IMG/VR virus record: IMGVR_UViG_3300035660_000001 | Coordinates: 62,001 to 126,000 of that record | Direction: 5' to 3' (one strand) | DNA length: 64,000 nt | Source of the DNA: a virus | In this document: positions 2,390 to 18,634 of the stretch, piece by piece | How the letters are laid out: every line of letters begins with the position of its first letter | Position numbering within the stretch: position 1 is the stretch's first letter | Notes under the pieces: model-generated | Told to the model about the DNA's origin: nothing | What the model saw: only the letters and a program-made list of their open reading frames with translations | Databases searched by the model: none | Made by a program: the position numbers and the translations under genes

Positions 2390-2794
2390 ATGAGCATTCT
2401 AATCGTGGACGACAACATGTTCGTTAGAGAGATGCTAAAAGACCTCCTCGAGCATAACGGGTACACCGTTTCTCTGGCGGATGGGGGGGTATCGGGATTG
2501 CAGAAGATCAAGGAGACCAAACCCCAGCTTGTGGTCTTGGACCTGATGATGCCGGACATGGACGGGTTTACGGTTTACGAGCAGATGAAACGGGACGACG
2601 AGATGAGAAACGTGCCCGTAATCGTGCTGACGGCATTACAAGAGTCCGATCTCAAGCCGGAGAAGAGAAGTATCCTGAGCGGCGTGAGGAAGTTCATCAC
2701 GAAGGGGACACCGGCGTTCAAACCAAAGGCGTTCTTGGAAGACGTCCACCGGATCGTTTCTAGCGATAACGGGGACAAGACGTTGGTCGTGTGA
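2390..2794 (+). CDS. Stand-alone CheY-like response regulator receiver
   Basis: The 134-residue protein is a complete single receiver domain. The acidic pair is D7/D8 (ILIVDDN), the phospho-acceptor is D51 (VVLDLMMPDMDGF), the switch Thr is T81 (IVLTAL) and the conserved Lys is K105 (FITKGT). There is no output domain. Such proteins receive a phosphoryl group from a histidine kinase and act by protein contact. None of the neighbours is a kinase, so it would have to use host kinases. It starts on the base after the stop of the membrane coiled-coil gene. A receiver in a tail operon is unusual. Confidence 0.88.
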   Translation: MSILIVDDNMFVREMLKDLLEHNGYTVSLADGGVSGLQKIKETKPQLVVLDLMMPDMDGFTVYEQMKRDDEMRNVPVIVLTALQESDLKPEKRSILSGVRKFITKGTPAFKPKAFLEDVHRIVSSDNGDKTLVV

Positions 2795-2830
2795 GGCCAA
2801 TAACTTTTGATGCAGAAAGGAGTCGGAGCA

Positions 2831-3577: not shown

Positions 3578-3741
3578 ACCATCTCGAGCATGATCTCATG
3601 TTTTTCTTCGAAGCGTGGAGGATGCCATACCTGGACGTTATGGCTCTTCCGTGCTCTAGGCGCCAGCGGCTGATAGACCTGAAGGTGGATATGCGGAAGA
3701 GGGGGAAGGACTTGCCTGCTCTACTCGAAGAAGGAATCTAG
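3559..3741 (+). CDS. Frameshift extension of the tail assembly chaperone
   Basis: This frame is open upstream of 3559, overlaps the chaperone end, and finishes seven bases before the tape measure start. It encodes about 60 residues after the slip (LPIGDLDHLEHDLMFFFEAW, then a basic middle and a LPALLEEGI end). The acidic/aromatic start and helical character fit T-type extensions of tail chaperones. It could instead be an independent small gene from the ATG at 3598, but no good ribosome site precedes that codon. Confidence 0.62.
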   Translation, partial: LPIGDLDHLEHDLMFFFEAWRMPYLDVMALPCSRRQRLIDLKVDMRKRGKDLPALLEEGI

Positions 3742-3747
3742 TAACTT

Positions 3748-6700
3748 ATGCCAACCTGGAATTTCCTAGTCGGTCTCGGCATCGTCGATCAGGGAACGGG
3801 TAAGTTCCTGAAGGACACTAAGAAAGAGCTCGATGGGACTACGGGTAGTTTCAAGAGCCTCGGGAATACCGCCGACGACGTAGCCGACCGGACCGCTAAG
3901 GGCGCCAAGCAGATGGCCGACGCCGTTGACAAGAGTTCCAGGGAAATGAGCCGATCGTGGAGGGATGCTGGGAAGAGCGCCCGGCAGATGGGCGGTGGCC
4001 GAGGTGGAGGCCGGGGAGGTCGGGGGGGAGATAAATACGGGTTCCTCGGTTTCGATATCAGGGACATAGGAGACAAGCTCAAGGGTCTGGGTAAGGCCGG
4101 GGGCGGTATTTTCACGGGTCTGGCCGGGGACTTCGGGGACATGATCGACACGAACGTCGAGTGGAGCTCGAGCTTTAAGGAGACGGCGGGGATATCCGAG
4201 AAGTCCGTAGCCCGCATGTCGACGTCTATCGTGACGCAGATGCATCGGGCCGGGATCGGGATCCGTGAGGCCAGCGGGGCGTGGGAGGATTTACGGGAGA
4301 ACCTGACGTCCGACGAGGCGGTCCGGGATATGAAGCGGGCGGTGGGCCTGAAGGAAGCCTTTGATATCCCGGCGTCGACGTATGCCACGTGGGTCGGGAT
4401 GTCGGAGACTTCCGGCCTGACCCAGAAGAACATGGCCGACCTGTTAGATACGTCTGCGGGCATGACCAAGAAGATGGGGCTTCCGAAGGGCTTTCTCAAG
4501 GAGATGATGGGGCTGTCGGAGACGGCCAGTGAGATCTCCCTCTCCTTTGGGTTAGCTCCCGAGAAGACCGCGAGCATGACGAAGAGCATGATGCGGGCCG
4601 CCGCGGCGATGCAGAAGACCCTCAAGATCGGGATCGAAGATGCAACCCGGTCAATTGAGAACATGGTCAAGAAAACGTCGGATCGCCGGAGGGAGATGCG
4701 GAGGTTCAGCCTCGGCCTCGGCGGGGATATGGACGCCGTTATGGACTCGGTAACGAATCTCGCTAAGGGTGTGGGGGATGCCGACTTTGCCTTCTCCCTG
4801 CTCATGGATCAGGACCCGACCGACGTTAAGAAGAAGCTGATAGATTTTGCCAAGACGATTCAGGGGGACACGACGGCGACCAACCGACTTTATGAAACCG
4901 TATCGGAAGCCTTCGGGGAGGACACGGCGAATGAGGTCGTCCGCCTGGGGAAGAAGATGGAGAAGAACCTGGGCGATGCCGCCAAGTCGCAGACGGCGAA
5001 CTTCGGGGAGATGGGGAAGTCTATCGAAGACGTCATGGCTACGGCGACCCGGGCGGAGAACCGGGCGAAGATGGCCGAACAGGTAAAGCTCTTCCAGGAG
5101 GGGTCGTTCTTCGTCGGGGAGTATGTGCGCCAGCTCGGAAAGTATGCCGACGCACAGGACAAGATCGCCAGGAAGACTACAGGCTGGGCGGGGGCCCACA
5201 AGAAGGCGATGGACTTCATAGCTAAGTTTGTCGTCGGCAAGCAGATGATGGAGTTCGCTGGCGGTAGGCGTGGTGGCGGGGGTTTTGCGGGTCTGATTCC
5301 TTCTCTCGGAATTGCGGGCGCGTCCATCGCTGGGTTGCTGGGAGGCTTTGGGGGGATGGGCAGAGGCGTGGGCCTCTTCGGAGGCGTGGCCGGGAAGTTA
5401 GGTGGAATCCAGCCGCTCGGATGGCTCAAGGGTCTCTTCGGAGCAGGGAAGGGTGTCGGGGCGGGAGCGAAGGGAGTCGGAGCGGCGGAAGAGGTTGCCG
5501 GGATGGGGGCGGGAGCCGCAGAAGCAACGGGAGGCTTTGCCCGGTTCCTCGGAGTGCTGGGAAAGGTGTCTGTTGTCCTGACGGCGATCGTCGCGGCCGC
5601 TGATTTCCTCTTCCGGGGGATCCCGAGGTTCGTCGGCATCTGGAAAGAGGGAGGGTCGATCTGGGAGAAGGGTTGGAAAACCGGAGTGGCCTACGCCGAC
5701 ACCGTGTCCCAGGTCTTGAACGATCTTACCTTCGGGCTCTACAAGTATATCGACATCTGGGGCTACATCCGTCGCTTTCTGGGCGATGACTTTCTTCTCA
5801 AATACCTTCCGAAGTTTTTCTCCGAGATCATGGGGCAGGCCGTGAGTCTTCTTAAGACAGTCATGAGCATCGGGGCAAGAATTGTCAAGTTCGGATGGGA
5901 TGTCAACGTAGCCCGGCCACTGAAGGTCGTCTGGGGTATTTTAAGGGGGGTTGCGGGAGCGATCGGATGGGCTGTTCAGAACCTCTGGAATCTCGACAAG
6001 GCCGTGTGGGGATGGGAGGCGTCTGTTGGAAAGGCTTTCGGGGGATTCGCCGTGAACCTTTTCAAATGGATTGGCCTTCCGATCGAGAACGTCGCTAAGG
6101 ATGCGATCGAGTGGGTCAAAGACATCATCCGGGTTCCCATGCAGTGGATACAGCAACACCTCGGTTGGATCAAGGACATCTGGGACAAAGCCTTCGGACC
6201 GATCAAGGATTATATCGAAGCTGTAAAGGCGTTCATCGATCTCCGGAAGGGGGAGATGGCAACCGAGACCGGGGTTGGTGGTGCAGGGACGTGGGGGAAG
6301 GATACCTGGGGGGACGTCCTTGGTGGTGGGGCCACAATGAAGCGGTTCGGGGGTGGCCCGAACGTCGCGGCCCTTCAAACGAGATTCGGCCCGGACTTTC
6401 TCGACAAGATCATGGGAATAGAATCCGCCGGGGGGAAGGCTGAGGGAAAGGCTTCTTCGAAGGGTGCCCGGGGGTTAATGCAGTTAATGCCTTCAGTTTA
6501 CGAACCCCACGGTTTGACTGCTGAAATGCTTTCCCAACCCGAAGCGGCGGCAAGAAAACATCTCGGCAAAGGAGCTTCGGAGCAGAGCATTAAGGCGATG
6601 GCCGAGACTTATCGCAAGCGGGGCGTCGAGGTCGGGACCGGGGAGCTCGTCCGCTATTACGACTCCTATCTCAAGCAGGGATACTCCCAGGATCAGGCTC

Positions 6701-7203
6701 AGGTTCTGGCGACGATGGCCTACAACATGGGCCCCGGGGGAGTAACGAAGTGGTTAAAAGGAGGAGCCCTCAATTCCGAAACCAGAAATTATATATCGAA
6801 GGCGTTCGGTGGACTCGACGTTGAGGCCCACCGGGCAGAGTATGTGACTCCCGGAGAAACTGCGGGAGGACTCGTTACTGGGGCACCAACCGTAACTGCG
6901 CCTGCCGGGTATGAGGGAGCGGATTATGATATGGGCGACGTCACTGCTGGGGGAATGCCCGAAATGCCTGGACTGCCCGGAGGTGGTGCCCCGGATATCG
7001 CTTATACTGGTGTTCCTGCCCGAGGCGGTGGTGGGGGGGGCGGGGAAGGGCTGGCGGGTGTTCTCGGGTCGATTGTGGACACCCTGAAGCGTCTCAAGGG
7101 GGATGTCTTTATGGATGGCAAGAAGATCGGCGAGGTCGTGTGGGGGAACATCAAGGACAAGGTCGATGCCGAGCTTCGTGAAGGGGTGTCCACTCGTGGA
7201 TAA
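3748..7203 (+). CDS. Tape measure protein with lytic transglycosylase domain
   Basis: The 1151-residue protein sets tail length. The N-terminal third is helical and Gly/Arg-rich near residues 85-105. Hydrophobic Gly/Ala-rich stretches follow around 505-630, then aromatic membrane-like segments to about 840. Residues about 880-1040 form a soluble lytic transglycosylase (SLT) domain: catalytic Glu at about 892 in IMGIESAGG, then GARGLMQLMPSV and ATMAYNMGPGGVTKWL. This domain would cut peptidoglycan as the tail tip penetrates. The Gly/Pro-rich C-terminus ends in a short helical region. It follows the frameshifted chaperone. Confidence 0.9.
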   Translation: MPTWNFLVGLGIVDQGTGKFLKDTKKELDGTTGSFKSLGNTADDVADRTAKGAKQMADAVDKSSREMSRSWRDAGKSARQMGGGRGGGRGGRGGDKYGFLGFDIRDIGDKLKGLGKAGGGIFTGLAGDFGDMIDTNVEWSSSFKETAGISEKSVARMSTSIVTQMHRAGIGIREASGAWEDLRENLTSDEAVRDMKRAVGLKEAFDIPASTYATWVGMSETSGLTQKNMADLLDTSAGMTKKMGLPKGFLKEMMGLSETASEISLSFGLAPEKTASMTKSMMRAAAAMQKTLKIGIEDATRSIENMVKKTSDRRREMRRFSLGLGGDMDAVMDSVTNLAKGVGDADFAFSLLMDQDPTDVKKKLIDFAKTIQGDTTATNRLYETVSEAFGEDTANEVVRLGKKMEKNLGDAAKSQTANFGEMGKSIEDVMATATRAENRAKMAEQVKLFQEGSFFVGEYVRQLGKYADAQDKIARKTTGWAGAHKKAMDFIAKFVVGKQMMEFAGGRRGGGGFAGLIPSLGIAGASIAGLLGGFGGMGRGVGLFGGVAGKLGGIQPLGWLKGLFGAGKGVGAGAKGVGAAEEVAGMGAGAAEATGGFARFLGVLGKVSVVLTAIVAAADFLFRGIPRFVGIWKEGGSIWEKGWKTGVAYADTVSQVLNDLTFGLYKYIDIWGYIRRFLGDDFLLKYLPKFFSEIMGQAVSLLKTVMSIGARIVKFGWDVNVARPLKVVWGILRGVAGAIGWAVQNLWNLDKAVWGWEASVGKAFGGFAVNLFKWIGLPIENVAKDAIEWVKDIIRVPMQWIQQHLGWIKDIWDKAFGPIKDYIEAVKAFIDLRKGEMATETGVGGAGTWGKDTWGDVLGGGATMKRFGGGPNVAALQTRFGPDFLDKIMGIESAGGKAEGKASSKGARGLMQLMPSVYEPHGLTAEMLSQPEAAARKHLGKGASEQSIKAMAETYRKRGVEVGTGELVRYYDSYLKQGYSQDQAQVLATMAYNMGPGGVTKWLKGGALNSETRNYISKAFGGLDVEAHRAEYVTPGETAGGLVTGAPTVTAPAGYEGADYDMGDVTAGGMPEMPGLPGGGAPDIAYTGVPARGGGGGGGEGLAGVLGSIVDTLKRLKGDVFMDGKKIGEVVWGNIKDKVDAELREGVSTRG

Positions 7204-7216
7204 GTGGAGATAACTC

Positions 7217-7303
7217 ATGATAAATTTTGATTTTTTTAGGGAGTTTTATCCACTTTTCCCTTACGGGGCAGTTTTACCAGCTACCAGGATTCCCCCGGCA
7301 TGA
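7217..7303 (+). CDS. Micro-ORF overlapping the start of ATP-grasp gene 1
   Basis: A 28-codon ATG frame begins eight bases after a GGAG site and ends with a TGA that overlaps the ATG of the next gene (ATGA). The product is hydrophobic/aromatic at the start (MINFDFFREFYPLFPYG) and ends LPATRIPPA. The region is AT-rich compared with its surroundings. It may be a leader for translational coupling, a small substrate peptide for the ATP-grasp enzyme, or chance. The second ATP-grasp gene is also preceded by an overlapping micro-ORF, with no clear sequence similarity. Confidence 0.42.
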   Translation: MINFDFFREFYPLFPYGAVLPATRIPPA

Positions 7304-8625
7304 GAGTCCTGATTCTCGACACTGGGCTTGCCCTCGATCTGGCTAGGAGACTGGCCGCAGAGGGGGATGAGGTCTATTATTACCTCAACAAGATCAGGAA
7401 TTACCCGGACGAGTCCGAGGCCATCTACGGCAAGGGGCTCTTTGAAGAGTGGGGGGTCAAGCGGATCGATATGTATGAATCCGTTCTAAGCTATGTCGAC
7501 TACGTTATAGCAACGGATATCGGCTACGGGAAGCACCTCGACCACTTCCGGGCGAAGGGAACGCTGGTCTACGGAGCCCCGTTCCTCGGAGAGAGGCTCG
7601 AGACGGACCGGGAGTTCGGCAGAGAGACCCTCGCAGGTTACGGGGTGAAGGTCCCGGAGGTCACGGTCCACAACACCAAAGAGGACGCCGTCCAGCATAT
7701 CAAGAAGGATCCCGGGGGCTACGCCTATAAGTCGGATGAGTCCCGCAACAAAAAGACCTTCGTGACCAAATCTCCGGAGGCCATGATCAAGTTCCTTGCC
7801 GGGCTGTCCTCCTCGGCTCCGATCCGGCTTGAGAAGTTCATCGATGGTGTGGAGATCGCCGTCGGAGGCTTTTTCAACGGGCAAGAGTTCCTGGGGCCCA
7901 AACTGACTTCCTTCGAGTACAACAAGACCTTCCCCGGAGATCTCGGGCCGATGAACTCGGAGATCGGGACGGCGATGTATTACGACGAGACCGGAGGGAA
8001 GGCGTTTGCGGAGACCCTAACGAAGATCGAGCCATTCCTGCGGATGGTCGGCTACCGGGGCTATGTGGAGGTCTCCTGCATTGTCAACGAGAACGGAACG
8101 CACGTCATTGAGTTCACTAACCGCTTCGGCTACCCGGTCTACATGATTCAGATGACGCTTCACAAACGCTTCGGGGAGGTTCTCTCGTCGGTCGCCTACG
8201 GGACCCTTCTGGACCCACGGTTCAGGCCGAAGTGGGATATCTTGAAGCGCCGCTGGGCGATCGGGACGTGCTGGTGCGTGAACGGCTATCCCTACACGGA
8301 GGTCATGAAGGCCCGGGGCGGGGACTGGTCGATCGTCTACGGCATCGACAAGGCGATCAAGGAGGGATCCCGGGTCGGGTTCTTCGGGGTGGTTAAGGAG
8401 GATGGGAAGTATATCGCCCTCCCCGACTACGGTCGGACGGTCTGCATCACGGGACAGGGCCAGACGATCTCCCAGGCCATGCAGGAGATGAACGACAGCG
8501 CCCGGAAGATATGGATCCCGGACGGCTTCTACCGTTACGATATCGGAGCCCGCACGATCGCCGAGGGGCAGAAGCTTCTCGAGTGGGGCTACGTCGACAA
8601 GGACTGGGCGAAGAGCTTCCGATGA
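7300..8625 (+). CDS. PurD-like ATP-grasp ligase, paralogue 1
   Basis: The 441-residue product resembles phosphoribosylamine-glycine ligase (GAR synthetase, PurD) in layout. It has a Rossmann-like N-terminus (MRVLILDTGLALDLARRLA), a pre-ATP-grasp VYGAP segment near residue 88, an EKFIDGVEIAVGGF strand near 180, LGPMNSEIGTAMYY near 216 (compare GPNTGGMGAYSP in PurD), and the metal-site signature HVIEFTNRFGYP near 270 (compare VVEFNVRFGDPE). The family forms acyl-phosphates and ligates an amine. Its position in a tail module and the presence of a second copy argue against simple purine synthesis; peptide or virion modification is an alternative. Confidence 0.78.
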   Translation: MRVLILDTGLALDLARRLAAEGDEVYYYLNKIRNYPDESEAIYGKGLFEEWGVKRIDMYESVLSYVDYVIATDIGYGKHLDHFRAKGTLVYGAPFLGERLETDREFGRETLAGYGVKVPEVTVHNTKEDAVQHIKKDPGGYAYKSDESRNKKTFVTKSPEAMIKFLAGLSSSAPIRLEKFIDGVEIAVGGFFNGQEFLGPKLTSFEYNKTFPGDLGPMNSEIGTAMYYDETGGKAFAETLTKIEPFLRMVGYRGYVEVSCIVNENGTHVIEFTNRFGYPVYMIQMTLHKRFGEVLSSVAYGTLLDPRFRPKWDILKRRWAIGTCWCVNGYPYTEVMKARGGDWSIVYGIDKAIKEGSRVGFFGVVKEDGKYIALPDYGRTVCITGQGQTISQAMQEMNDSARKIWIPDGFYRYDIGARTIAEGQKLLEWGYVDKDWAKSFR

Positions 8626-8744
8626 GCTACACCTTCGACCCCGACGCCGTTGAGTCTTTGATCACGACAGAGATTTTTCTGCTGTCCCCGATCACCGTCC
8701 TGCTCGATATCGAATCATACATCCCGGAGGATGATAATGGCTAG
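8622..8744 (+). CDS. Small hypothetical protein after ATP-grasp 1
   Basis: A 40-residue product from an ATG that overlaps the stop of the ATP-grasp gene (ATGA), typical of translational coupling. It is acidic with a hydrophobic centre (ITTEIFLLSPITVLLDIESY). Its last codons overlap the start of the following gene. The overlaps at both ends support it as real. No family recognised. Confidence 0.55.
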   Translation: MSYTFDPDAVESLITTEIFLLSPITVLLDIESYIPEDDNG

Positions 8745-9036
8745 GGTCTATCTCGGTCAGACTGCGTTGCGGATTCGTATAAATACGGGGGTCGATCTCA
8801 CCGGGGCAACGACACTCCAAGCCGCAGTCAAGAAACCGTCCGGGGCGGGGGTTCTGTGGGACTGTTCGGGCGAAGCCCCGCTGACGGCGGGAATCATGTA
8901 TCACGATGTCGTTACGGCCTCAGAGCTCGATGAGGCCGGGCAGTTTACTCTTCAGTCTTACGTTGTGTTCTCCGATGGCCGCTGGGCTTACGGGGACGAA
9001 GCCTTTATGATCGTTCATCCAATCTCTTCGGTGTGA
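8737..9036 (+). CDS. Predicted virion protein, beta-rich, fibre/baseplate associated
   Basis: The 99-residue product (MARVYLGQTALRIRINTGVD, then TTLQAAVKKPSG, and a C-terminal AGQFTLQSYVVFSDGRWAYG) is of the type often found beside tail fibre genes, with an N-terminal strand pattern like upper-baseplate proteins. GGAGG lies six bases before the ATG at 8737, which decides against the ATG at 8731. It overlaps the previous gene by eight bases. A structural role is inferred from context. Confidence 0.6.
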   Translation: MARVYLGQTALRIRINTGVDLTGATTLQAAVKKPSGAGVLWDCSGEAPLTAGIMYHDVVTASELDEAGQFTLQSYVVFSDGRWAYGDEAFMIVHPISSV

Positions 9037-9044
9037 GGTGAGCC

Positions 9045-9371
9045 ATGCCTGAAGGACCGAGCTTTATACAGCTTCCCGTAGACGGCCAGGGAAAGAAAAC
9101 CCGTTCGCACGTGCGGACCGTTGCGGGGGCGGACGTCCACGAGCAGTATGTCATTCTCGATACCCCGCCGTTAACGACCCGGGTAGATGAGGTGGACGCC
9201 AATACTTTCTATGTCGGGAAGGCCGCCATCGGGAGTGCCGAGACTGCGGCTGTGTGGCAGATCAAGAAGGGGATCAAGGTTGGGACGGAGACGAAGATTT
9301 TGGATCCAGTAACAACCGGAGATACGTTCGTGAATAGGTGGGATCAGCGGACTACTATAACTTACGCATAA
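9045..9371 (+). CDS. Predicted virion structural protein
   Basis: The 108-residue product (IQLPVDGQGKKTRSHVRT, AGADVHEQYVILDTPP, then a short C-terminal beta-rich domain) belongs to a type of small protein common beside phage fibre and tail genes. GAGGTGAGCC precedes the ATG. It lies directly upstream of fibre 1, three bases from its start. A structural role is inferred. Confidence 0.58.
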   Translation: MPEGPSFIQLPVDGQGKKTRSHVRTVAGADVHEQYVILDTPPLTTRVDEVDANTFYVGKAAIGSAETAAVWQIKKGIKVGTETKILDPVTTGDTFVNRWDQRTTITYA

Positions 9372-9374
9372 GCC

Positions 9375-12300
9375 ATGTCTCCTGCGAAACCAGTTTTTAA
9401 CGGCGCAAGCTCCAACGTGATGAGCACCGGCCTTTTGGCTGGTGGCGTCCTGTCGGTCACTCCCGGTCACCCATCCTGGTTCGATATCAGTGATGGGTCC
9501 GGGGTTGTCGTTGATAACTATACCGACACGCTTCATCCCCGAAAGACGGTGGTGGCTTGGTCTGGGAAGACGGGCATTGAAGTTACGAATTTGCTTACAG
9601 CTTTGGTGACCTATGTGGCCCTCGACAAAAATGGGCATGTCATCCAGTCTACTGTAAACTTTACTCCCGATGAACGCCGGGATTTGATTGTCCTTGGCGG
9701 ACTTAGTCACTTTGGTCATGCGGTGATCGAATTTATTGCGAACTATCCTTCTGTCGCATACGATGATTCCGCTCAGTTTGTCGATTTCGCCGATGCAATC
9801 GGTCCCATAAATATCACCGGTAATGTCTATGGGCCAAACGGGATGAACCTGAACCTCGATAAGTCGGGGGGATCTTCGTTTAAGATCGGCAGTAATTATG
9901 TCGCCGACAAAAAAACTCCCAACGTCCATCCTGACAACACAGGGACTGCTCTTTACTTCTTTTACGATTATCATACTGGTCCGGGTACTTGGGGAACGGT
10001 AGGCCCTCTCAATATTATCGATCCCGACCACTACGACAACGGGCTTGGATTAGAAGACGTTCCGGAGGACATGTGGACGATCCAGATGATTTTCTACGTT
10101 CCTGCGGCTGGTCTGACTTCAATTCAATATGGTCAGGAGATATACGACACCAAGGAAACTGCTCGAGCACATCTCCAGGATCCCGTGGATATTCTTCCGG
10201 AGCTAGCTTCCGGGAACGCGCTGTTCCGGGGTTGGTTAATCGTCCGTCAAGGCGCTATCGATTTAAGTGATCCTACCTGGGCTCAATTTGACATAGCGGG
10301 TAAGTTTGGTCTTGTCTCTGAAATCACAGGAACAGGTGGCGGCGAAGCGAATACGGCATCGAACAATGGCTTGGCCGGAACGGGGCTATACCTTCAGAAA
10401 CAGGGAGTCGACCTTCAGTTCAAGAATATCCGGGCGGCCTCTTCTCAGATCACAGTCGCTGACAATCCTGCCCTTAAAACGGTAGACATCGATCTTGGGG
10501 CGGGGGCCTCCGGTCAGAGCGGGTACAGTGGTCACAGCGGGTACTCTGGACAGTCCGGATTTAGCGGAGCCTCGGGTCTCAGTGGAGCTTCGGGTCTTAG
10601 CGGTTCTTCCTTTGTCGGATCGTCGGGGTATTCCGGCTTCAGCGGGTTTACAGGAGCCTCTGGTCTTTCTGGGGCCTCAGGCGCCAGTGGAGCTTCTGGT
10701 CTTTCGGGGGCATCCGGGACCAGCGGTGCCTCGGGACAGTCTGGGTATTCTGGTGCCAGTGGGTTGTCAGGGGCCTCGGGAGCCTCCGGCCAGTCCGGGT
10801 ATAGTGGTTTCTCGGGTTTCACCGGGGCGTCTGGTCTGTCCGGGGCCTCCGGTGCCAGTGGGGCATCTGGTGCCTCGGGGAACTCGGGGTATTCGGGGTT
10901 CTCCGGGTTCTCTGGATCCGGGGCTTCCGGTGCTTCCGGAGCCTCTGGGGCTAGTGGGCAATCCGGCTATTCGGGTCTATCCGGCTTCAGTGGACTTTCT
11001 GGGGCCTCTGGTGCGTCCGGTGCGAGCGGGGCTAGTGGATCATCGGGTTACAGCGGGTTGTCAGGCCAGAGTGGCCTTTCCGGGGCATCTGGGGCCTCTG
11101 GTGCGTCGGGTCAGTCCGGTTACAGCGGGTTCTCTGGGTTTTCCGGTTTATCAGGGGCATCAGGGGCATCTGGCGCTTCCGGGACCTCCGGGGCTAGCGG
11201 GGCCTCCGGGGCCAGTGGCTATTCTGGATTTAGCGGGTTCAGCGGGGCTTCAGGACTCTCCGGAGCATCCGGGGCCAGCGGCGCCTCGGGGCAGTCGGGC
11301 TACAGCGGGTTCTCTGGGTTTACGGGAGCCTCGGGACTGTCTGGGGCATCGGGACTTTCAGGAGCCAGCGGGGCCAGCGGGGCTAGCGGGACTAGCGGGT
11401 ATTCCGGCTTCTCAGGATTTACGGGTCTATCGGGAGCTTCGGGCGCTTCGGGAGCAAGTGGAGCCAGTGGACAATCCGGATACAGTGGCTTCTCGGGCTT
11501 CAGCGGAGCCAGCGGTCTTTCGGGATCTTCGGGAGCGTCCGGTGCTTCGGGTGCCTCTGGCCAGTCTGGCTACTCGGGCCTTAGTGGACTCTCCGGTTCT
11601 TCCTTTATCGGATCGTCGGGCTACAGTGGGCAGTCCGGATTCAGCGGACTCAGTGGAGAGTCAGGCGCGAGCGGGGCTTCCGGGACCGGGGCATCCGGAC
11701 AGTCAGGATATAGCGGGTTCAGTGGTTTCTCGGGGTCAGGCGCATCGGGTGCCAGTGGAGCGAGCGGAGCATCTGGTCAATCAGGTTACTCCGGTCTCAG
11801 TGGGCTCTCGGGATCCTCCTTCTCTGGATCATCCGGTTACAGTGGACAGTCCGGGTTCTCCGGGCTCTCGGGTGCGTCTGGTTTGTCGGGTGCGGGCGGT
11901 GCTTCTGGTGCTTCTGGTGCATCGGGAGCGTCCGGGGCCTCGGGCTACTCTGGGTTTAGCGGGTTCTCGGGGGAATCGGGCCTTTCTGGAGCTTCCGGTG
12001 CGAGTGGAGCGTCCGGCGCCTCTGGTGCTTCTGGACAATCTGGATATTCAGGATTTTCTGGGTTTACAGGAGCATCCGGACTTAGCGGAGCATCCGGAGT
12101 AAGCGGTACATCCGGAGCTTCCGGGCTCTCGGGTTATAGTGGTTTCTCGGGATTTACGGGGGCATCTGGCCTCAGTGGGGCGTCTGGACTTTCAGGAGCC
12201 GGTGGAGCATCCGGAGAGTCCGGTGCCTCGGGAGCATCAGGGCTCTCGGGTTACAGCGGGTTTAGTGGGTTTTCGGGAATCTCGGGAGCCTCGGGACTTT

Positions 12301-13505
12301 CCGGTGCCGGCGCCTCGGGAGCATCAGGACAATCAGGCTACTCGGGCTACAGTGGTTTCTCGGGGTTTAGCGGTCTTAGCGGCGCCTCGGGAGCTAGTGG
12401 AGCCTCCGGCGCTAGTGGGGCATCCGGGCTTTCAGGTTACAGTGGATTTTCAGGGTTCAGCGGAGCTACGGGTATCTCTGGTGCTTCTGGGCTTTCGGGA
12501 GCAAGTGGGGCCAGCGGTGCCAGTGGGCAGTCTGGGTACTCCGGTCTCAGCGGACTCTCGGGGTCATCTTTCATTGGACAATCTGGGTACTCCGGGTTGT
12601 CTGGGTTCTCGGGTCTATCCGGAGCCAGCGGTCTTAGCGGAGATTCCGGGGCATCCGGGGCCAGCGGCCAGAGCGGCTATTCGGGATATTCCGGGTTCTC
12701 GGGTTTTACTGGGGCTTCAGGAGCTTCGGGGGCTTCGGGAGCCTCTGGTCTCTCCGGCACTAGTGGTGCTTCAGGTCAGAGTGGTTATAGTGGGTATGTG
12801 GGAACGCCTGGGTCTGGTGGCTTGCTTCTGATGACCGAGCTCGCTACTCCCGGAGCAGGAACTTGGACTAAAAACGCTAGTACTAATTTTATTAGGGTGA
12901 TCGGAGTCGGTGGTGGCGGCGGTGGTGGAGGAGCGAACTCAGCGGCGAATAACGCATCTGCAGGAGGTGGAGGTGGCGGCGGTGGATTCTTTGAAATCTG
13001 GGTTACTAGTCCTCCGGCCTCGCTTAATTATTCTGTAGGAGCCGCGGGAGCGAATGGCTCTGCTACTGGTGGGACTGCCGGAGGTGCTGGGGGCCCAACT
13101 ATCTTCGGAAACGACAATGGCTCCATCAATTGCAATGCCAACGGGGGGAATGGCGGGGTGGCGGGAGGAAATGCTAATGCAAGAACTATAAACGCAGGAG
13201 GGGCAGGAGGCGTTCCTACTTCGGCTGTGGCGGCGGCTCAGGCTGTTCTGGTCACTGGTTCTAACGGGACGGATGCCTTCATCTCCAATAAGGTTCTGTG
13301 TTGGAGTGGCAACGGGTCTACTGGCTTCTGGGGCGGCGGTGGTGGTGGAGCGTATGCTACAAACGTCATTGCGATGGCCGGGGGTAATGCTCAGACCAGT
13401 CAATACGGGACAGGCGGAGGTGGGGCGGCTGTTGGTAACGGAGCGAACAGTGCTCGTGGAGGGACGGGAGCACAGGGAGTTTTGATCATCTATGAATACG
13501 CATAA
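9375..13505 (+). CDS. Tail fibre 1: Gly-X-Ser repeat fibre with glycine-rich tip
   Basis: The 1376-residue protein has three parts. Residues 1 to about 376 are a beta-rich attachment region. Residues about 377-1139 are Gly-X-Ser triplets (X mostly Ala, Leu, Tyr, Phe or Gln), with proline almost absent. Residues about 1140-1376 are a very glycine-rich tip (GVGGGGGGGG, TGGTAGGAGG, WGGGGGGAY) resembling the polyglycine-II tip domains of phage receptor-binding adhesins. I count 249 triplets with eight two-residue breaks: four of the SSF(V/I/S) type and four of GS, GT or GA. No clear ribosome site precedes the ATG, which is three bases after the previous stop. Confidence 0.85.
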   Translation: MSPAKPVFNGASSNVMSTGLLAGGVLSVTPGHPSWFDISDGSGVVVDNYTDTLHPRKTVVAWSGKTGIEVTNLLTALVTYVALDKNGHVIQSTVNFTPDERRDLIVLGGLSHFGHAVIEFIANYPSVAYDDSAQFVDFADAIGPINITGNVYGPNGMNLNLDKSGGSSFKIGSNYVADKKTPNVHPDNTGTALYFFYDYHTGPGTWGTVGPLNIIDPDHYDNGLGLEDVPEDMWTIQMIFYVPAAGLTSIQYGQEIYDTKETARAHLQDPVDILPELASGNALFRGWLIVRQGAIDLSDPTWAQFDIAGKFGLVSEITGTGGGEANTASNNGLAGTGLYLQKQGVDLQFKNIRAASSQITVADNPALKTVDIDLGAGASGQSGYSGHSGYSGQSGFSGASGLSGASGLSGSSFVGSSGYSGFSGFTGASGLSGASGASGASGLSGASGTSGASGQSGYSGASGLSGASGASGQSGYSGFSGFTGASGLSGASGASGASGASGNSGYSGFSGFSGSGASGASGASGASGQSGYSGLSGFSGLSGASGASGASGASGSSGYSGLSGQSGLSGASGASGASGQSGYSGFSGFSGLSGASGASGASGTSGASGASGASGYSGFSGFSGASGLSGASGASGASGQSGYSGFSGFTGASGLSGASGLSGASGASGASGTSGYSGFSGFTGLSGASGASGASGASGQSGYSGFSGFSGASGLSGSSGASGASGASGQSGYSGLSGLSGSSFIGSSGYSGQSGFSGLSGESGASGASGTGASGQSGYSGFSGFSGSGASGASGASGASGQSGYSGLSGLSGSSFSGSSGYSGQSGFSGLSGASGLSGAGGASGASGASGASGASGYSGFSGFSGESGLSGASGASGASGASGASGQSGYSGFSGFTGASGLSGASGVSGTSGASGLSGYSGFSGFTGASGLSGASGLSGAGGASGESGASGASGLSGYSGFSGFSGISGASGLSGAGASGASGQSGYSGYSGFSGFSGLSGASGASGASGASGASGLSGYSGFSGFSGATGISGASGLSGASGASGASGQSGYSGLSGLSGSSFIGQSGYSGLSGFSGLSGASGLSGDSGASGASGQSGYSGYSGFSGFTGASGASGASGASGLSGTSGASGQSGYSGYVGTPGSGGLLLMTELATPGAGTWTKNASTNFIRVIGVGGGGGGGGANSAANNASAGGGGGGGGFFEIWVTSPPASLNYSVGAAGANGSATGGTAGGAGGPTIFGNDNGSINCNANGGNGGVAGGNANARTINAGGAGGVPTSAVAAAQAVLVTGSNGTDAFISNKVLCWSGNGSTGFWGGGGGGAYATNVIAMAGGNAQTSQYGTGGGGAAVGNGANSARGGTGAQGVLIIYEYA
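10503..12791 (+). repeat. Gly-X-Ser triplet region of fibre 1
   Basis: These 2289 bases code for 763 residues: 249 Gly-X-Ser triplets plus eight two-residue interruptions. Aromatic clusters (GYS GFS GFS/T) recur about every 8-11 triplets with GAS and GLS triplets between. At the DNA level serine and glycine codons vary freely between copies, so protein repeats are much more alike than DNA repeats. The four SSF(V/I/S)G breaks lie near 10600, 11600, 11815 and 12565. Confidence 0.9.
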
Positions 13506-13516
13506 CGGAGGATGCG

Positions 13517-14218
13517 ATGTGGCAGAAGCGTTCTAAAAAGACAGTGTTCACATTGAATTTAGACCCGGACAAGTATCGGGAGATCACCGATATGACCTAT
13601 CCCTTGCTGAAGGAGTATGCGAGGAAGATAGAGGCGGATTTTCATGTGATCTCCGAGAGAAAGTTCCCCGAATTCAAGAGTCCGACCTACGAGAAGTGCC
13701 AGGTCTATCAACTGGCGCAGGATATGAACAATGACTGGAACATCTTTTTCGACTGCGATGCTCTCGTCCATCCCGACACGCCGGATATCACGAACCTGCT
13801 CTCGAAGGATACCGTCCTGCACAACGGCTCCGACTTTGCTCCTCTCCGGTGGAGGTATGATCGGTTCTTCCAGCGGGACGGAAGGCATATCGGCTCCTGC
13901 TCTTGGTTGGAGATCGCAAGTGATTGGTGCATAGAGCTATTTAAGCCTCTGGATGATCTCACTCCGGAAGAAGCTAACGCGAACATCTTTCCGCTTGCCG
14001 GGGAGACAGCTTCTGGCTACGAACCATATCGGTTGATTGAGGACTACGTGTTCTCCCGGAACATAGCGAAGTTCGGTTTGAAGTTCATTACGTTCGAAGA
14101 CCTCATGGTGAAGTATGCCAAGCTGAAGGGGAACTTCTTCTGGCACAACTATGCTATTCCCATTGAGGAGAAGGTGGAGCAGATGAAGCAGATTCTCCGG
14201 GAGTGGAAACTGACATGA
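13517..14218 (+). CDS. Predicted glycosyltransferase (GT-A type)
   Basis: The 233-residue product contains WNIFFDCDALVHPDTPDI near residues 73-90, where DCD is a DxD-like metal/nucleotide-sugar site preceded by hydrophobic residues, and has the general layout of small GT-A transferases (N-terminal VFTLNLD strand, a YEKCQVYQLA helix). GGAGG lies five bases before the ATG. It stands eleven bases after the fibre 1 stop and its end overlaps the radical-SAM gene start. The position suggests fibre modification; substrate unknown. Confidence 0.65.
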   Translation: MWQKRSKKTVFTLNLDPDKYREITDMTYPLLKEYARKIEADFHVISERKFPEFKSPTYEKCQVYQLAQDMNNDWNIFFDCDALVHPDTPDITNLLSKDTVLHNGSDFAPLRWRYDRFFQRDGRHIGSCSWLEIASDWCIELFKPLDDLTPEEANANIFPLAGETASGYEPYRLIEDYVFSRNIAKFGLKFITFEDLMVKYAKLKGNFFWHNYAIPIEEKVEQMKQILREWKLT

Positions 14219-15672
14219 AGTCGATGATGGAGATGGACACGGTCCAGATAGAGATTACCGATGCCTGCCGTTTGCGGTGTTCTAACTGCACCCGTTTCTG
14301 CGGACACAAGAAGCCCTACTTCATGTCCTTCGACCAGTTCAAGGAGTCGGTCGACTCGATGGTTGGGTATCCCAAGATGGTGGGGATCATGGGAGGAGAG
14401 CCTCTGCTTCATCCGGAGTTCGAGAGGTTCTGCGCCTATGCACGATCCAAGATACCAAAGGTCCAGCTCGGGCTCTGGACCTCTCTTCCAGAAGGGCATG
14501 AGGATTACAGGACGGCTATCTGCGATACCTTTGAGCATATCTTTATCAATGATCATACCCGAGGGGACGTGATCCATCACCCGCCCCTGGTGGCCGCCGA
14601 AGAAGCCGTTCCGGATCGGGGGATCATGTGGAGTTATATTAACCACTGCTGGGCCCAGGAGAGCTGGAGCGCGTCGATCAATCCGCATGGAGCCTGGTTC
14701 TGCGAGATTGCCGCCGCTATGTCTATGCTCTTCGATGGGGGGCAGGGATGGAAGGTGGAACCCGGTTGGTGGTGGAGGATCCCGAAGGACTTTACGGAGC
14801 AGATGGAAATGTTCTGTCCCCGGTGCGGGTTTGCCATCCCATTGAAGAGGCGGGTGAGCACTGGCGTAGTGGACGACATTTCCCCGAAGAACCTGGAGCG
14901 GTTGACGGGTAAGTCCCTTAAGGTAGCTCGGGGCGAGTACGAAGTTAGCCCGTTGACCCTAGAGAACGACTTCAGGCCGATGGCGACCTACAAGGACACG
15001 GACTACCGGAACGGGATAGCCAGGCGTTACGGTATGTTCGTCGTCGTGAACCAGCAGAAGTTCTGGACCCCGCACCTACTGAGGAAGCAGGATAAGTCGG
15101 AGGCGCAACCGCACAAGCCCCTGTTGGAAGTTCTACGGGAGAGAAACCTCTACAAGGGGAACGGCATCGACGGTTTTATGGCGGACGACAACCTTGTCTG
15201 GCTATTCGATATTGCTCGGAAGATGAATAGCATAGTCGAGGTTGGATCATGGAAGGGGAGGAGCACCCACGCTCTGTTGAGTGGTTGCCCGGGGACAGTC
15301 TGGGCCGTAGACCATTTCAAGGGAAGCATGGCCGAGCGTGAAAGAACCCAGTCTCACTTTGAGGCCACAATCCGGGATGTGTCGGAAGATTTTCTGAAGA
15401 ATGTCGGGATGTTCCCGAACCTGAAGCTCTTGAAGGTGGATAGCATAGAAGCGTCCAAGCACTTTGAGCCCCAATCCATAGACATGGTCTTCATAGACGG
15501 CGGGCATACCTACGAGGATATTTATCTCGACCTTGAGGCCTGGACTCCCATTGCCCGGAAGATGATCTGCGGACACGATTATGGCTCCGAGGTCAAGGAT
15601 GCCGTCGACAAGAAGTTTGGCGAAGACAGGGTTGAGACCAGGGACTTTGGGCTCTGGATGGTGAATCTATGA
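14215..15672 (+). CDS. Radical SAM and SAM-methyltransferase fusion
   Basis: The 485-residue product starts with a radical-SAM cluster motif, C18-x3-C22-x2-C25 (CRLRCSNC), and the GGEP-like IMGGEPLLHPEF near residue 60. The N-terminal half (to about 300) is a radical-SAM barrel with further Cys, including CPRCG near 202. The C-terminal part (about 320-485) is a class I methyltransferase of the Methyltransf_24 type: SIVEVGSWKGRST, AVDHFKG, and DMVFIDGGHTYEDIYLDLEAW. The ATG at 14215 overlaps the previous stop; GTG 14203 is also possible. A fusion of this kind next to a fibre gene suggests peptide or sugar modification. Confidence 0.78.
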   Translation: MKSMMEMDTVQIEITDACRLRCSNCTRFCGHKKPYFMSFDQFKESVDSMVGYPKMVGIMGGEPLLHPEFERFCAYARSKIPKVQLGLWTSLPEGHEDYRTAICDTFEHIFINDHTRGDVIHHPPLVAAEEAVPDRGIMWSYINHCWAQESWSASINPHGAWFCEIAAAMSMLFDGGQGWKVEPGWWWRIPKDFTEQMEMFCPRCGFAIPLKRRVSTGVVDDISPKNLERLTGKSLKVARGEYEVSPLTLENDFRPMATYKDTDYRNGIARRYGMFVVVNQQKFWTPHLLRKQDKSEAQPHKPLLEVLRERNLYKGNGIDGFMADDNLVWLFDIARKMNSIVEVGSWKGRSTHALLSGCPGTVWAVDHFKGSMAERERTQSHFEATIRDVSEDFLKNVGMFPNLKLLKVDSIEASKHFEPQSIDMVFIDGGHTYEDIYLDLEAWTPIARKMICGHDYGSEVKDAVDKKFGEDRVETRDFGLWMVNL

Positions 15673-16571
15673 AAATTCTAGTGACTGGTGGCGCTGGATT
15701 TATTGGAGCGCATCTCTGTCGAAGACTGCTTCGGGATGATCATGAAGTGGTCTGTGTGGACAATTTTTCTACTGGGGAGCGTAAAAACATCGAAGACTTG
15801 CTGGGTAACACAAGATTTGAATTATACCAGCAAGATGTCACTGTCCCATTCGATGAGGACTTCGAGCAGTGCTTTAGTCCAAATCAGATATACAACCTGG
15901 CGAGTCCTGCGGCTCCTGGTCAGTACCGGAAGGAGTCTCTGAATACCGTCATGACGAATGTCGTGGGAATGATCAACGTGCTTAACCTGGCTCGATCCAG
16001 CTCGGCCACCGTCCTTCAGGTGTCCACATCGAAGGTCCGGAACGTGATCGATAACTGCGGGCTGGACGGATGTTACATTGAAGGAAAGAGGTGCGCCGAG
16101 ACGATCTGTGTGGAATATCGCAACAAATTCGGGCTGGACGTGAGGATCGCACGGCTGTTTAACGTCTACGGCCCGGGGATGTCGTTGGAGGACTCTCGGG
16201 TCGTCCCGCAGTTCATCATGAGGGGCCTTGCTGGAAGACCTCTGGTCGTCTGGGGAGATGGTACGCAGGAGGATTTGTTTCTCTACGTCGACGACGCAGT
16301 GGAGGCTCTAATCCTACTGATGAACGATCCTCTTTACTCCGCTCCCACCTACATCGGAGGAAAGGCCAAGATAACCATTCGGGACTTAGCCGAGCTGGTC
16401 GACTCGCTGTTGCCGAACCGCTGTGGCATCTCGTTTGAGTTTAACGAGAACGCCGGGGCATTGGAAGTCATCGTGCCGCCTATTTTCGGGTCTCAGGCGG
16501 TTCCGCTCGTCGATGGAATCCAGAAGACCATCAGTTATTTTAAAAGTGCTCTTCAGGAGAAGGCATCATGA
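15669..16571 (+). CDS. NAD-dependent sugar epimerase/dehydratase, UDP-xylose synthase-like
   Basis: The 300-residue protein is an extended short-chain dehydrogenase. It has the NAD motif VTGGAGFIGAHL near residue 5, VDNFSTGERKN near 30, the NLASPAAPGQY segment typical of UDP-glucuronate decarboxylases near 76, STS near 118, the YxxxK pair Y136/K140 in CYIEGKRCAE, and ARLFNVYGPGM near 160. The family makes UDP-xylose from UDP-glucuronate; related members are dTDP-glucose dehydratases. It overlaps both neighbours by four bases, so it is coupled to the enzymes behind fibre 1. Confidence 0.8.
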   Translation: MKILVTGGAGFIGAHLCRRLLRDDHEVVCVDNFSTGERKNIEDLLGNTRFELYQQDVTVPFDEDFEQCFSPNQIYNLASPAAPGQYRKESLNTVMTNVVGMINVLNLARSSSATVLQVSTSKVRNVIDNCGLDGCYIEGKRCAETICVEYRNKFGLDVRIARLFNVYGPGMSLEDSRVVPQFIMRGLAGRPLVVWGDGTQEDLFLYVDDAVEALILLMNDPLYSAPTYIGGKAKITIRDLAELVDSLLPNRCGISFEFNENAGALEVIVPPIFGSQAVPLVDGIQKTISYFKSALQEKAS

Positions 16572-16936
16572 CTCTTTTCAAGACTGTAGATTTCGGTCCG
16601 GGCTACGAGAGCCTGGGGACGGTCGGATATGTCCTTTACAATCCCAACGGGTCGGTGAAGCAGGTCCGGACGACGTCGGGCGTAGTCAACATATCCCAGG
16701 CGACCTACGGATGCAACATGACGCTAGACGCCGACTGGAAGGGGAGCATCGTGTGGGACACGGGAGGAGCGAGCCCTATCTATGCCTCCGACGATTTTAA
16801 CTACGCCGAGGCTTCTCTCGGGGTGGCCGGGGCGGTCTGGGATCAGCCGACGAGCGCGCATGTGGGTGCGGGATCGTTCGGGGAGTGGGTCAAGAACGGG
16901 CTGTTATCCTTCGCCAAGTTCATCGGGCTGAAATGA
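16568..16936 (+). CDS. Predicted fibre-associated structural protein
   Basis: The 122-residue product (FGPGYESLGTVGYVLYNPNG, then MTLDADWKGSIVWDTGG and YASDDFNYAE) has a short beta-sandwich-like repeat pattern met in phage tail fibre and baseplate accessory proteins. It ends with a hydrophobic helix (WVKNGLLSFAKFIGLK). Overlaps by four bases at both ends place it in the same operon. Function unknown. Confidence 0.55.
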   Translation: MTLFKTVDFGPGYESLGTVGYVLYNPNGSVKQVRTTSGVVNISQATYGCNMTLDADWKGSIVWDTGGASPIYASDDFNYAEASLGVAGAVWDQPTSAHVGAGSFGEWVKNGLLSFAKFIGLK

Positions 16937-17040
16937 TACATCCCCTCCTCGACATGATGTGGGCGGACCACTGGACGATCCTGGCCCGGGTGATCATCAA
17001 CCTCAAATCCTTCATCGCAAAGTCATGGCCTCATTCCTGA
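16933..17040 (+). CDS. Micro-ORF overlapping the start of ATP-grasp gene 2
   Basis: A 35-codon frame begins at an ATG overlapping the previous stop (ATGA) and runs 16 bases past the start of the second ATP-grasp gene. The product is rich in Trp, Ile, Leu and His (MMWADHWTILARVIINLK in the middle) and could be an amphipathic helix. The arrangement mirrors the micro-ORF before ATP-grasp gene 1. It may act as a coupling leader or as a substrate peptide; neither is shown. Confidence 0.42.
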   Translation: MIHPLLDMMWADHWTILARVIINLKSFIAKSWPHS

Positions 17041-18350
17041 TCATGGACACGGCCCTGGCGATGGCTCTCGCCAAGAGGCTTCGAGATGAAGGCCACAAGG
17101 TCTTTTACTGGGTGAACTGGGCCCGGGCACACCCGGAGATTTACGAGACGACCTACGGCAAGGGACTCTTCGAGGAGTGGGGAGTCAAGAAAGTGGAAGG
17201 GTTTCTCGACATCGCTAAGTCCGTAGACTGCGTGGTTTCCACGGACGTCGGGTTCGGGCAGGAAGTGGACGGCCTCCGGGAAGACGGAATCAAGGTCTTT
17301 GGGGCCGGGGGAGGGATTGCCAAGTGGGAGCTCGACCGGAAGCTGGGAAAGCAGGTTATGCGGGACGCAGGGATCCAGACACCCCACTCAGAAGCCTTCC
17401 AGGACGTCAAGAAGGCCATCCAGACCGTCCAGAACGGCAAGGTGGGCTACTGCGTCAAGGTTTCCGAGATGTTGGCCAAGGGGACGTATGTCGGCAGGGC
17501 CGTGGACGACACGGTTGATTACCTCGAGAAGGTGAAGGAGAAGGCCGGGGACAAGGCTGATCTCATCCTCGAGGAGAAGGTCGAAGGCGTGGAGATGGCG
17601 ATCGGGGGGTTTTACGACGGGAAGAAGTTTGTCCGGCCTCTCTGCTTGAACTTCGAGGAGAAACGTCTCGTGGCCGGAGGGCAGGGGGCCCTCACGGGCG
17701 AGATGGGGACAAGCCTCCGTTACGTTCAGGGCGGGAAGCTCTTCGAGGAGACCCTGGCGAAGCTCGAGGGGCTGATGTCCGAGGGCGATCGCTTCCGGGG
17801 CTACTTCGACATTAACTGCATCGTAAACGAGGAAGGCGTCTTCGGAATTGAATTCACGTCCCGGTTCGGCTATCCCTTGCTTCTCATTCAGATGGCCTTG
17901 CATAAGGATGGCGTCGGAGATCTGCTTATGAAATGCGCCTTCGGGGAGAAGGATATCAGTCCCCAGATCATGCGGGGTTGGGCGGTCGGGGTGACCCTCA
18001 ACATCGGGTCTTATCCTTTCGACGAGTGCTTCCCCCAATACGACTGGGAGGTCGTGAACGGGATCCCCGAGGCCGAACAGAACGGTTGCGATCTCCAACC
18101 GTTCGGGCTTGTCCTCGAGGACGGGGTCTACAAAGTTCTCCCCGGCATGGGGCGGATTTTATGCTCAAATGGCGTGGATGAGAAACTTCCCGAGGCCCGA
18201 AGGAAGGCGCTTGATGCATTCGACTACGTCTCAGTGAACGATGGCCACTACCGGAACGATATCGGCATGCGGGTGACCTACGCCGGGGAGCGGCTCAAGA
18301 AGCTCGGCTACTTCGATGACGAGCTTCTGAAGAGCGTGGAGGAAGCATGA
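17025..18350 (+). CDS. PurD-like ATP-grasp ligase, paralogue 2
   Basis: The product is 441 residues, the same length as paralogue 1, and aligns along its whole length. Shared blocks include TYGKGLFEEWGVKKV, a VEMAIGGFYDGKKF strand, CIVNEEG followed by GIEFTSRFGYPLLLIQMALHK (the PurD-like metal site), and GHYRNDIGMR near the end. The ATG at 17025 is chosen because its product aligns with the paralogue start (MASFLIMDTALAMALAKRL). The genes bracket fibre 1, which suggests duplication and divergence. Purine ligase activity is possible but not implied. Confidence 0.78.
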   Translation: MASFLIMDTALAMALAKRLRDEGHKVFYWVNWARAHPEIYETTYGKGLFEEWGVKKVEGFLDIAKSVDCVVSTDVGFGQEVDGLREDGIKVFGAGGGIAKWELDRKLGKQVMRDAGIQTPHSEAFQDVKKAIQTVQNGKVGYCVKVSEMLAKGTYVGRAVDDTVDYLEKVKEKAGDKADLILEEKVEGVEMAIGGFYDGKKFVRPLCLNFEEKRLVAGGQGALTGEMGTSLRYVQGGKLFEETLAKLEGLMSEGDRFRGYFDINCIVNEEGVFGIEFTSRFGYPLLLIQMALHKDGVGDLLMKCAFGEKDISPQIMRGWAVGVTLNIGSYPFDECFPQYDWEVVNGIPEAEQNGCDLQPFGLVLEDGVYKVLPGMGRILCSNGVDEKLPEARRKALDAFDYVSVNDGHYRNDIGMRVTYAGERLKKLGYFDDELLKSVEEA

Positions 18351-18634
18351 AGTCCATGCCCTTCGGGTCCAGGCTCAACAAGGCGACCTACCAGACAATA
18401 GGCAACGTCGCCTTCTGGGATTCGGACTTCGTCGACGTGGCCGGGAATACGGATGATCTCTTCGTAGCCTTCACCGGAGGGGATCGGCTTGACTTTATTG
18501 CCCACCGGGCTTACGGGACCGTCCACGGCTGGTGGGTGATCGCATCGATCAACCGGATCCAGCTTCCGGTGACCGACCTGCAGGCCGGGGATCTCCTGCG
18601 GATCCCGTCCTTTGCGAAGTTCGGGGCGATATGA
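18347..18634 (+). CDS. LysM-like baseplate wedge protein (gp53/gpX-like)
   Basis: The 95-residue product contains DRLDFIAHRAYGTVHGWWVI followed by an IASINRIQ helix and LQAGDLLRIPS, the LysM-like fold signature of small baseplate or tail proteins such as T4 gp53 and P2 gpX. The spacing from a YG turn to a GD-x-LRIP strand is typical. It overlaps the ATP-grasp stop and the hub gene start by four bases each. In many myophages this gene follows the tape measure directly; here the fibre 1 block intervenes. Confidence 0.66.
   Translation: MKSMPFGSRLNKATYQTIGNVAFWDSDFVDVAGNTDDLFVAFTGGDRLDFIAHRAYGTVHGWWVIASINRIQLPVTDLQAGDLLRIPSFAKFGAI

Follow-up and report, generated by a model that had tools for sequence, protein, structure and literature searches.

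Why would a phage keep two copies of what looks like a purine-synthesis gene, one on each side of a tail-fibre gene block? This question is raised by a 64,000-nucleotide stretch of viral DNA (the window; bases 62001-126000 of the 160,139-base virus record IMGVR_UViG_3300035660_000001), in which two genes, here called A and B, encode ATP-grasp proteins resembling PurD, the glycinamide ribonucleotide (GAR) synthetase:

7300-8625, + strand: copy A, PurD-fold ATP-grasp protein, 441 aa, ATG start
17025-18350, + strand: copy B, PurD-fold ATP-grasp protein, 441 aa counted from its ATG

The mechanically called open reading frame (ORF) of B starts at a GTG at 16959 and has 463 aa, while B of a sister phage (IMGVR_UViG_3300031873_000001, compared here in those of its loci that were examined) is the 441-aa ATG frame. 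The two window products align over their whole length, with 37% identity and 58% positives over 442 columns (BLASTP, E 6e-99, far above chance), carry the motifs EFTNRFGYP (A) and EFTSRFGYP (B), and are the sole two matches to A in the entire virus record. The initial annotation, which had described two 441-residue products that align full length, share EFxxRFGYP sites and bracket the fibre block, was correct on all these points, including the coordinates.

Our answer is that A and B are not GAR synthetases and are members of a separate PurD-fold ATP-grasp family, hereafter the TGE family. As for what this family does, our best explanation, held tentatively and falling a little short of even probability, is that it is a late ATP-dependent carboxylate-amine ligase family tied to genome delivery, of which B would be a conventional member and A an altered one.

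PurD fold and altered motifs

AlphaFold models of A and B (predicted local distance difference test scores, pLDDT, of 89.6 and 88.6) both retrieved PurD as the top match in structure searches: VIA Z 36.0 at 2.9 Å over 389 residues for A, with the best non-PurD structure at 25.5, and VIA Z 35.4 at 3.1 Å over 388 residues for B, with the best non-PurD structure at 24.2. The predicted structures thus confirm the PurD fold that had been proposed for both proteins from their sequence. Their sequence matches in the PDB were also PurD chains, PurD being the best named relative, and both match GARS_A and GARS_C with E 5e-6 or better (GARS_C just below the curated cut-off in both). A and B are therefore like PurD (E. 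coli; A. aeolicus 2YW2; EC 6.3.4.13) over the whole length of the fold and in their GARS_A/GARS_C similarity, but they differ from it at the N-terminus, where no GARS_N match was found in either protein up to E 0.1 (the E. coli PurD control gave 7e-40). Scores against TIGR00877, the PurD equivalog model, were 79.1 for A and 120.5 for B, both more than 160 bits short of the cut-off of 288, against 631 for the E. coli PurD control.

Other ATP-grasp enzymes have been described in phages. According to passages of PMC7824862, the R2K peptide ligases are phage-encoded and predicted to modify proteins, a likeness to A and B that we draw by description only. The LUZ24-like phages also encode an ATP-grasp enzyme, but that of UFV-P2 has 291 aa and is counted with the early genes in the part of PMC3890496 that deals with it. 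Neither RimK nor R2K was among the PDB rows shown for A and B. In BFVD, no whole-length match to A was found (best template modelling score, TM, of 0.43 by query length), and the named viral ATP-grasp proteins there, RimK-named rows included, align to A only in part; no PHROG family matches A or B. The peptide ligation initially suggested for the two proteins is, as stated, not directly supported.

Relatives of A and B were searched for in viral and cellular DNA. A first profile scan of IMG/VR gave 417 confirmed relatives out of 491 stretches and a second scan with other patterns gave 87 out of 93, the overlap between the two being uncounted and IMG/VR containing near-duplicates; a cellular scan with one genome per species gave 151 out of 258. 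Of these, 80 of the 417, 80 of the 87 and 80 of the 151 cellular stretches were kept. At 85% identity, the 80 loci of the first scan reduce to 37 different rows, and 73 of the 80 cellular loci gave a called gene matching A. By record title, the cellular owners are Micrarchaeota, Woesearchaeota, Patescibacteria, Woeseiaceae, Acidobacteria and others; contigs of metagenome-assembled genomes can be contaminants. These cellular loci (labelled L096-L175) form a free-standing PurD-like family across archaea and bacteria. Among 50,697 named phage records, only MW202796 carries a family gene, which is unannotated there; the other matches were taken as ordinary PurD because they match E. coli PurD at 44-94%.

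Sites were then compared, in E. coli PurD numbering, between eight PurD sequences, 73 cellular rows and 40 phage rows dereplicated at 85% (A, B and L006 included; L004, L058, L068 and L070 excluded). The family is characterized by a TGExGT loop, Glu at D214, Thr at N288 and Arg at K105; B has all four traits, and A has an NSEIGT loop and keeps the other three. The search patterns contained both the TGE loop and a GVExAVGG motif, whose conservation is therefore built in; they did not contain D214E, N288T or K105R. The swaps K105 to R, D214 to E, G229 to E and N288 to T are each fixed in 40/40 phage and 73/73 cellular rows. In the N-terminal loop (GxGGREHA), R11/E12 are found in 8/8 PurD sequences and in none of the phage (0/40) or cellular (0/73) rows, and H13 is retained in 0/40 and 4/73, respectively. 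The Asp of the RFGDPE motif (D293) is likewise gone from every phage and cellular row, and E295 persists in a single cellular row (0/40 phage, 1/73 cellular). Five residues, E102, K145, E194, E286 and R290, are unchanged in all 40 phage and 73 cellular rows, and K216 is unchanged in all cellular and 39 phage rows, A being the exception. E187 is Gln in 38/40 phage and 73/73 cellular rows, and Glu in A and B.

The binding-site passages of PMC8880213 list D212, R287 and E292 as the glycine contacts of A. aeolicus PurD and K103, K143, E185, E192, K214 and E100 as its ATP/Mg contacts, the matching of these residues to the E. coli ones being our own. Most of the ATP/Mg contacts and the glycine-carboxylate Arg are common to PurD, A and B, which makes ATP use and activation of a carboxylate plausible for the family. 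At the other glycine contacts, A and B have Glu for Asp (D214E) and Val (A) or Leu (B) for Glu (E295), next to Tyr for the motif Asp (D293), G229E, N288T and the changed N-terminal loop. Judged from these aligned residues, the phosphoribosylamine site and the site that takes the amino group of glycine are unlike those of PurD.

Could the two proteins still be genuine PurD enzymes that boost purine synthesis by making GAR? PurD is their best named family, and auxiliary metabolic gene (AMG) surveys list a viral phosphoribosylamine-glycine ligase (relevant parts of PMC11360552, PMC11097641 and PMC12043954). We nevertheless judge this very improbable, given the shortfall of more than 160 bits and the changes in the N-terminal loop and glycine contacts. 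Moreover, PurM/PurL and PurC were found in 0/23 virus records each (the longer records, hand-chosen, which may still be fragments), when controls gave 14/14. A precedent also exists in archaea: in the passages of PMC3261824 on the haloarchaeal 'extra PurD' proteins rrnAC0307 and Hlac_1553, both were judged not to be GAR synthetases, on the same signs. Like A and B, these proteins lack GARS_N and have lost the Asp of R[LF]GDPE, but they are cellular and were set beside A and B by description only; a Halobium contig (L173) is among our cellular relatives. The suggestion of the initial annotation that the pair has a role other than GAR synthesis is therefore supported, and the viral 'purD' genes in the three AMG reports may include members of this family. 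The fold is known and the family was noticed once in archaea; in the open-access literature searched, we found no description of the family in phages or of its phage setting.

Phylogeny, inteins and the unlike pair

The family splits from PurD with a support of 100 in a first tree (cellular rows reduced from 73 to 34 at 72%) and of 100/100 in a second one. A main phage clade of 13 rows is supported at 100/100, and six phage rows (L047, L009, L179, L183, L016 and L185) fall among the cellular rows. L176 and the conventional copy of a record that carries two copies (the L195/L186 record) join A and B in a group with support 97/94, and these four share an insertion around KGLFEEWG; a further scan found no additional close member of this clade. 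The distance between A and B (37%) is similar to their distances to L195 (36% and 40%). Long branches that meet were flagged for A and B, and later for L186 and L190, the last two being left unplaced. A and B are thus paralogues within one clade, in which the tree does not settle which of the two branches first, and a recent private duplication is unsupported. The local recruitment of a duplicated PurD, as first imagined for this locus, finds no support either: both proteins come from an old family of their own, with members in cells as well.

Selection acts on both genes. Copy A of the sister phage has 94% identity in its first 273 residues; for a 183-residue piece that includes the end of an intein, identity is 86%, and sister B is 92% identical. 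Between window and sister copies, the ratio of nonsynonymous to synonymous substitution rates (dN/dS; simple Nei-Gojobori script) was 0.094 over 273 codons of A and 0.098 over 441 codons of B, showing purifying selection on each.

Inteins tend to occupy conserved positions in proteins that are needed. In the gene family, in-frame Hint-type insertions were found in 11 contigs (L003:1829-4189; L188, L189, L191, L192, L193, L216, L319, L323, L325 and L326) at four sites, 10 of the 11 lying in active-site motifs: six contigs have one at GPN|SGE (the far junction of L323 was not found), one at TGEMG|T, three at EFT or EWS|CRFG, and one, L326, at an earlier place. Junctions are near-identical between L192 and L193 and between L189 and L191; L325 and L326, which have no GARS match, belong to the family only distantly. 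LAGLIDADG_3 was matched, with E up to 0.01, in 9/9 frames scanned (L189 and L192 left out; L188 below the curated cut-off). Sister copy A carries an EFT-site intein; A and B of the window are intein-free. The position of these inteins at the family's motif loops suggests that the loops are probably catalytic and that the protein is needed.

The two window copies differ at conserved positions. Only A among the 40 phage rows has Asn at K216 (Asn208) and Ser in place of G228; it also has Asn at T227, while B carries the family residues at all three positions. From these residues, we read B as a conventional enzyme and A as altered, perhaps as its partner. Whether A, together with other degenerate copies, might be a non-catalytic structural or regulatory partner, which would be compatible with the other readings considered here, is a real possibility towards which we nonetheless do not lean. 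The three substitutions speak for it, as does the L195/L186 record, where a conventional copy is likewise accompanied by a degenerate one. Against it, A retains E102, K145, E194, E286 and R290, and its dN/dS of 0.094 together with the EFT-motif intein of sister A suggest selection on the site. The degenerate copy of that other record (L195:17015-18361) has no TGE loop.

Setting among virion genes

In a first survey of 38 dereplicated members, the window excluded, the gene upstream of the ligase gene encodes at least 600 aa in 28 cases and overlaps it by exactly 4 nt in 23, with both features in 21. The usual order upstream is a head-closure-like gene (often at -5), a GNAT gene (-4, in 14 loci), a DNA-ejection-like gene (-3), a gene of ~450 aa (-2) and one of ~1000 aa (-1), and downstream come a small gene (+1) and then genes that read as lysozyme- or holin-like. 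Representatives of the -3 and -5 genes match the PHROG annotations 'DNA ejection' and 'head closure', and one -1 protein starts with an endolysin-like domain, to be compared with the SLT domain of the gene lying directly upstream of A (gap of 96 nt), which its size and place make a probable tape measure. The +1 gene, fibre-like by reading and belonging to the same small family in 17/37 loci, matched neither Pfam nor PHROG. A late-gene context beside virion genes thus holds for the window and for the family, with exceptions; the virion-related context of the initial annotation is found in many phage relatives and is missing from others.

A physical link to a virion protein was found in L047 (IMGVR_UViG_3300028654_000089), where a portal domain, GARS_A/GARS_C and Phage_Mu_F follow one another in a single 1236-aa frame (2256-5966). 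Of 14 portal relatives on other contigs, 11 have portal fused to MuF, the other three running off their contigs, and 0/14 contain an ATP-grasp domain (L284 and L285 look alike). Since these 11 relatives are fused without it, the ligase seems to have entered a pre-existing portal-MuF fusion in L047. Pfam detected no portal or MuF domain in A or B, and no virion-protein fusion other than that of L047 was found, in a domain search that did not extend to the long frames lacking a terminal Hint motif; those that end in one are inteins.

On these grounds, our preferred explanation would work as follows. By homology, the family would bind Mg-ATP and convert a carboxylate into an acyl phosphate, which would then be passed to an amine; glycine and phosphoribosylamine do not fit the altered sites. 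The phage enzyme would be made late with the ejection proteins, portal/MuF, tape measure and baseplate, and would act on genome-delivery proteins or travel with them. B would be the conventional enzyme, and A, which has lost near-invariant residues of the ATP site and loop, would be a partner subunit or would take another substrate. A bolder version, in which a PurD-derived ligase of a widespread phage family is part or maker of the genome-delivery machine and is carried in or used by the virion, we consider rather doubtful; metagenome surveys could take such a ligase for a purine AMG. Should the link to genome delivery be true, what looks like a purine gene on hundreds of environmental contigs of phages would be an enzyme of virion assembly or infection, and the reading of viral 'purD' in AMG surveys would change. 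The phage genes also offer an entry point to the orphan ligases encoded by cells of Micrarchaeota, Patescibacteria, Woeseiaceae and other lineages.

L047 also bears on a sharper form of this explanation, in which the ligase is a virion-borne effector that is packaged, enters the host with the DNA and ligates a host molecule early in infection. Passages of PMC5512222 describe the packaging and injection of portal- or MuF-fused enzymes, along with zincin-like processing. In L047, where the ATP-grasp domain sits between portal and MuF in a single frame, a segment separating it from the portal (HEIIEL) is zincin-like by motif only and has no Pfam match. The overlaps with ejection-type genes in the first survey point the same way. 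The likeness to such polyvalent/MuF effectors (PMC5512222, PMC5576092) consists of the portal/MuF-fused enzyme and the late-gene context; they differ in that no PurD-type ATP-grasp is among those described in the parts of these reports concerned with effector domains, and in that A and B are separate proteins. With a single fusion contig, and the other copies being separate genes without a known packaging signal, we regard an injected effector as unlikely, if worth keeping in mind.

A number of observations weigh against tying the family to genome delivery. The portal fusion is known from one contig. Five of six representatives of the ~450-1260-aa genes at -1/-2 have no PHROG match, so that their ejection role rests on position. 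A second survey (52 loci hand-chosen of 80, of which six had no called gene, leaving 46) was weaker, with a + strand upstream gene of at least 600 aa in 13/46, a 4-nt overlap in 12/46 and both in 5/46. Some copies stand outside structural modules: L069 and L074 are found by DUF2828 genes, L176 near QueD/QueE-like genes, and the L195/L186 copies by genes that read as methyltransferase-like. Of these, L176 and L195 are the nearest kin that the pair A and B has elsewhere. Compared with the sister phage, A shows 94% identity and the probable tape measure no more than 43% (over 504 columns), so that the latter is not obviously a co-conserved partner. Lastly, the cellular members have no conserved neighbourhood, no neighbour cluster being found in more than 5/80 loci, which suits a small-molecule substrate.

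Several of these points would fit an auxiliary metabolic enzyme that acts on a non-purine small molecule and merely sits in a late operon: its cellular relatives are free-standing in very different lineages and without conserved neighbours, phage copies occur outside structural modules, and the second survey is weaker. We find this quite unlikely, considering how repeatedly the first survey places the gene beside ejection-type genes, with overlaps of 4 nt, and considering also the portal-MuF fusion and the A/B pair being kept at the tail module in two phages.

Other candidate links were rejected. A role in 7-deazaguanine metabolism was considered from the QueD/QueE-like genes near L176, but PTPS was found in 1/23 virus records. 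Anti-phage defence was dropped when PADLOC gave no match for four members. A zincin-like neighbour was set aside, its motif being found within four genes in 3/198 loci and in 0 beyond, which is too few. Separately, a protein of 124-133 aa with HE[AIL]VE adjoins the ATP-grasp gene in two phages (L212, L257) and in a Patescibacteria contig (L175), and the ATP-grasp frame L204:5139-6725 has ~110 extra C-terminal residues that, by reading only, resemble the beginning of a HAD phosphatase (FDLDKTLA).

The interval between A and B

The genes around and between A and B in the window are:

3748-7203, + strand: large gene with SLT transglycosylase domain (Pfam SLT 3.7e-7), 1151 aa, probable tape measure
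8731-9036, + strand: 101-aa gene after A; sister phage counterpart 47%
9045-9371, + strand: 108-aa gene; sister phage counterpart 43%
9375-13505, + strand: collagen-like fibre, 1376 aa (Pfam Collagen 7e-90); unmatched in sister loci
13517-14218, + strand: glycosyltransferase-like gene, by sequence reading only; unmatched in sister loci
14203-15672, + strand: radical SAM + Methyltransf_24 fusion (Pfam); unmatched in sister loci
15669-16571, + strand: NAD-dependent epimerase; unmatched in sister loci
16568-16936, + strand: 122-aa gene before B; weak sister match, 32% over 75 columns
18347-18634, + strand: baseplate-wedge-like gene (phrog_7145 'baseplate wedge subunit', 1.5e-9)

The stop of B overlaps the start of the baseplate-wedge-like gene by 4 nt. 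The initial annotation had placed the pair between a tape measure and a LysM-like baseplate gene: the baseplate assignment holds through the PHROG match, the LysM-like character does not, no Pfam family at all being found in this gene up to E 0.1, and the tape measure is deduced from size and place. The glycosyltransferase-like gene has no Pfam match and no PDB match up to E 1.

In the sister phage, B is again followed by the baseplate-wedge-like gene (87%). The A-B interval holds other genes instead of the fibre, glycosyltransferase-like, radical SAM and epimerase genes, none of which has a match in the loci compared; two of the small genes are kept and the third weakly. The block of these four genes (within 8622-17033) is thus, by its sequence, an exchangeable cassette flanked by conserved A and B, and this conservation around an exchangeable cassette argues for a target outside it, without pointing clearly to the tape measure. 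It also bears on whether A and B modify the fibre together with the glycosyltransferase-like, radical SAM and epimerase genes. That they flank the fibre block would suit such a role, but we hold it to be improbable, the four cassette genes being unmatched in the sister loci where A (86-94%) and B (92%) are kept.

In one gene of the cassette, a radical SAM domain is joined to Methyltransf_24 (14203-15672), and the longest ORF listed in the window, of 2112 aa, lies further downstream at 33240-39578.

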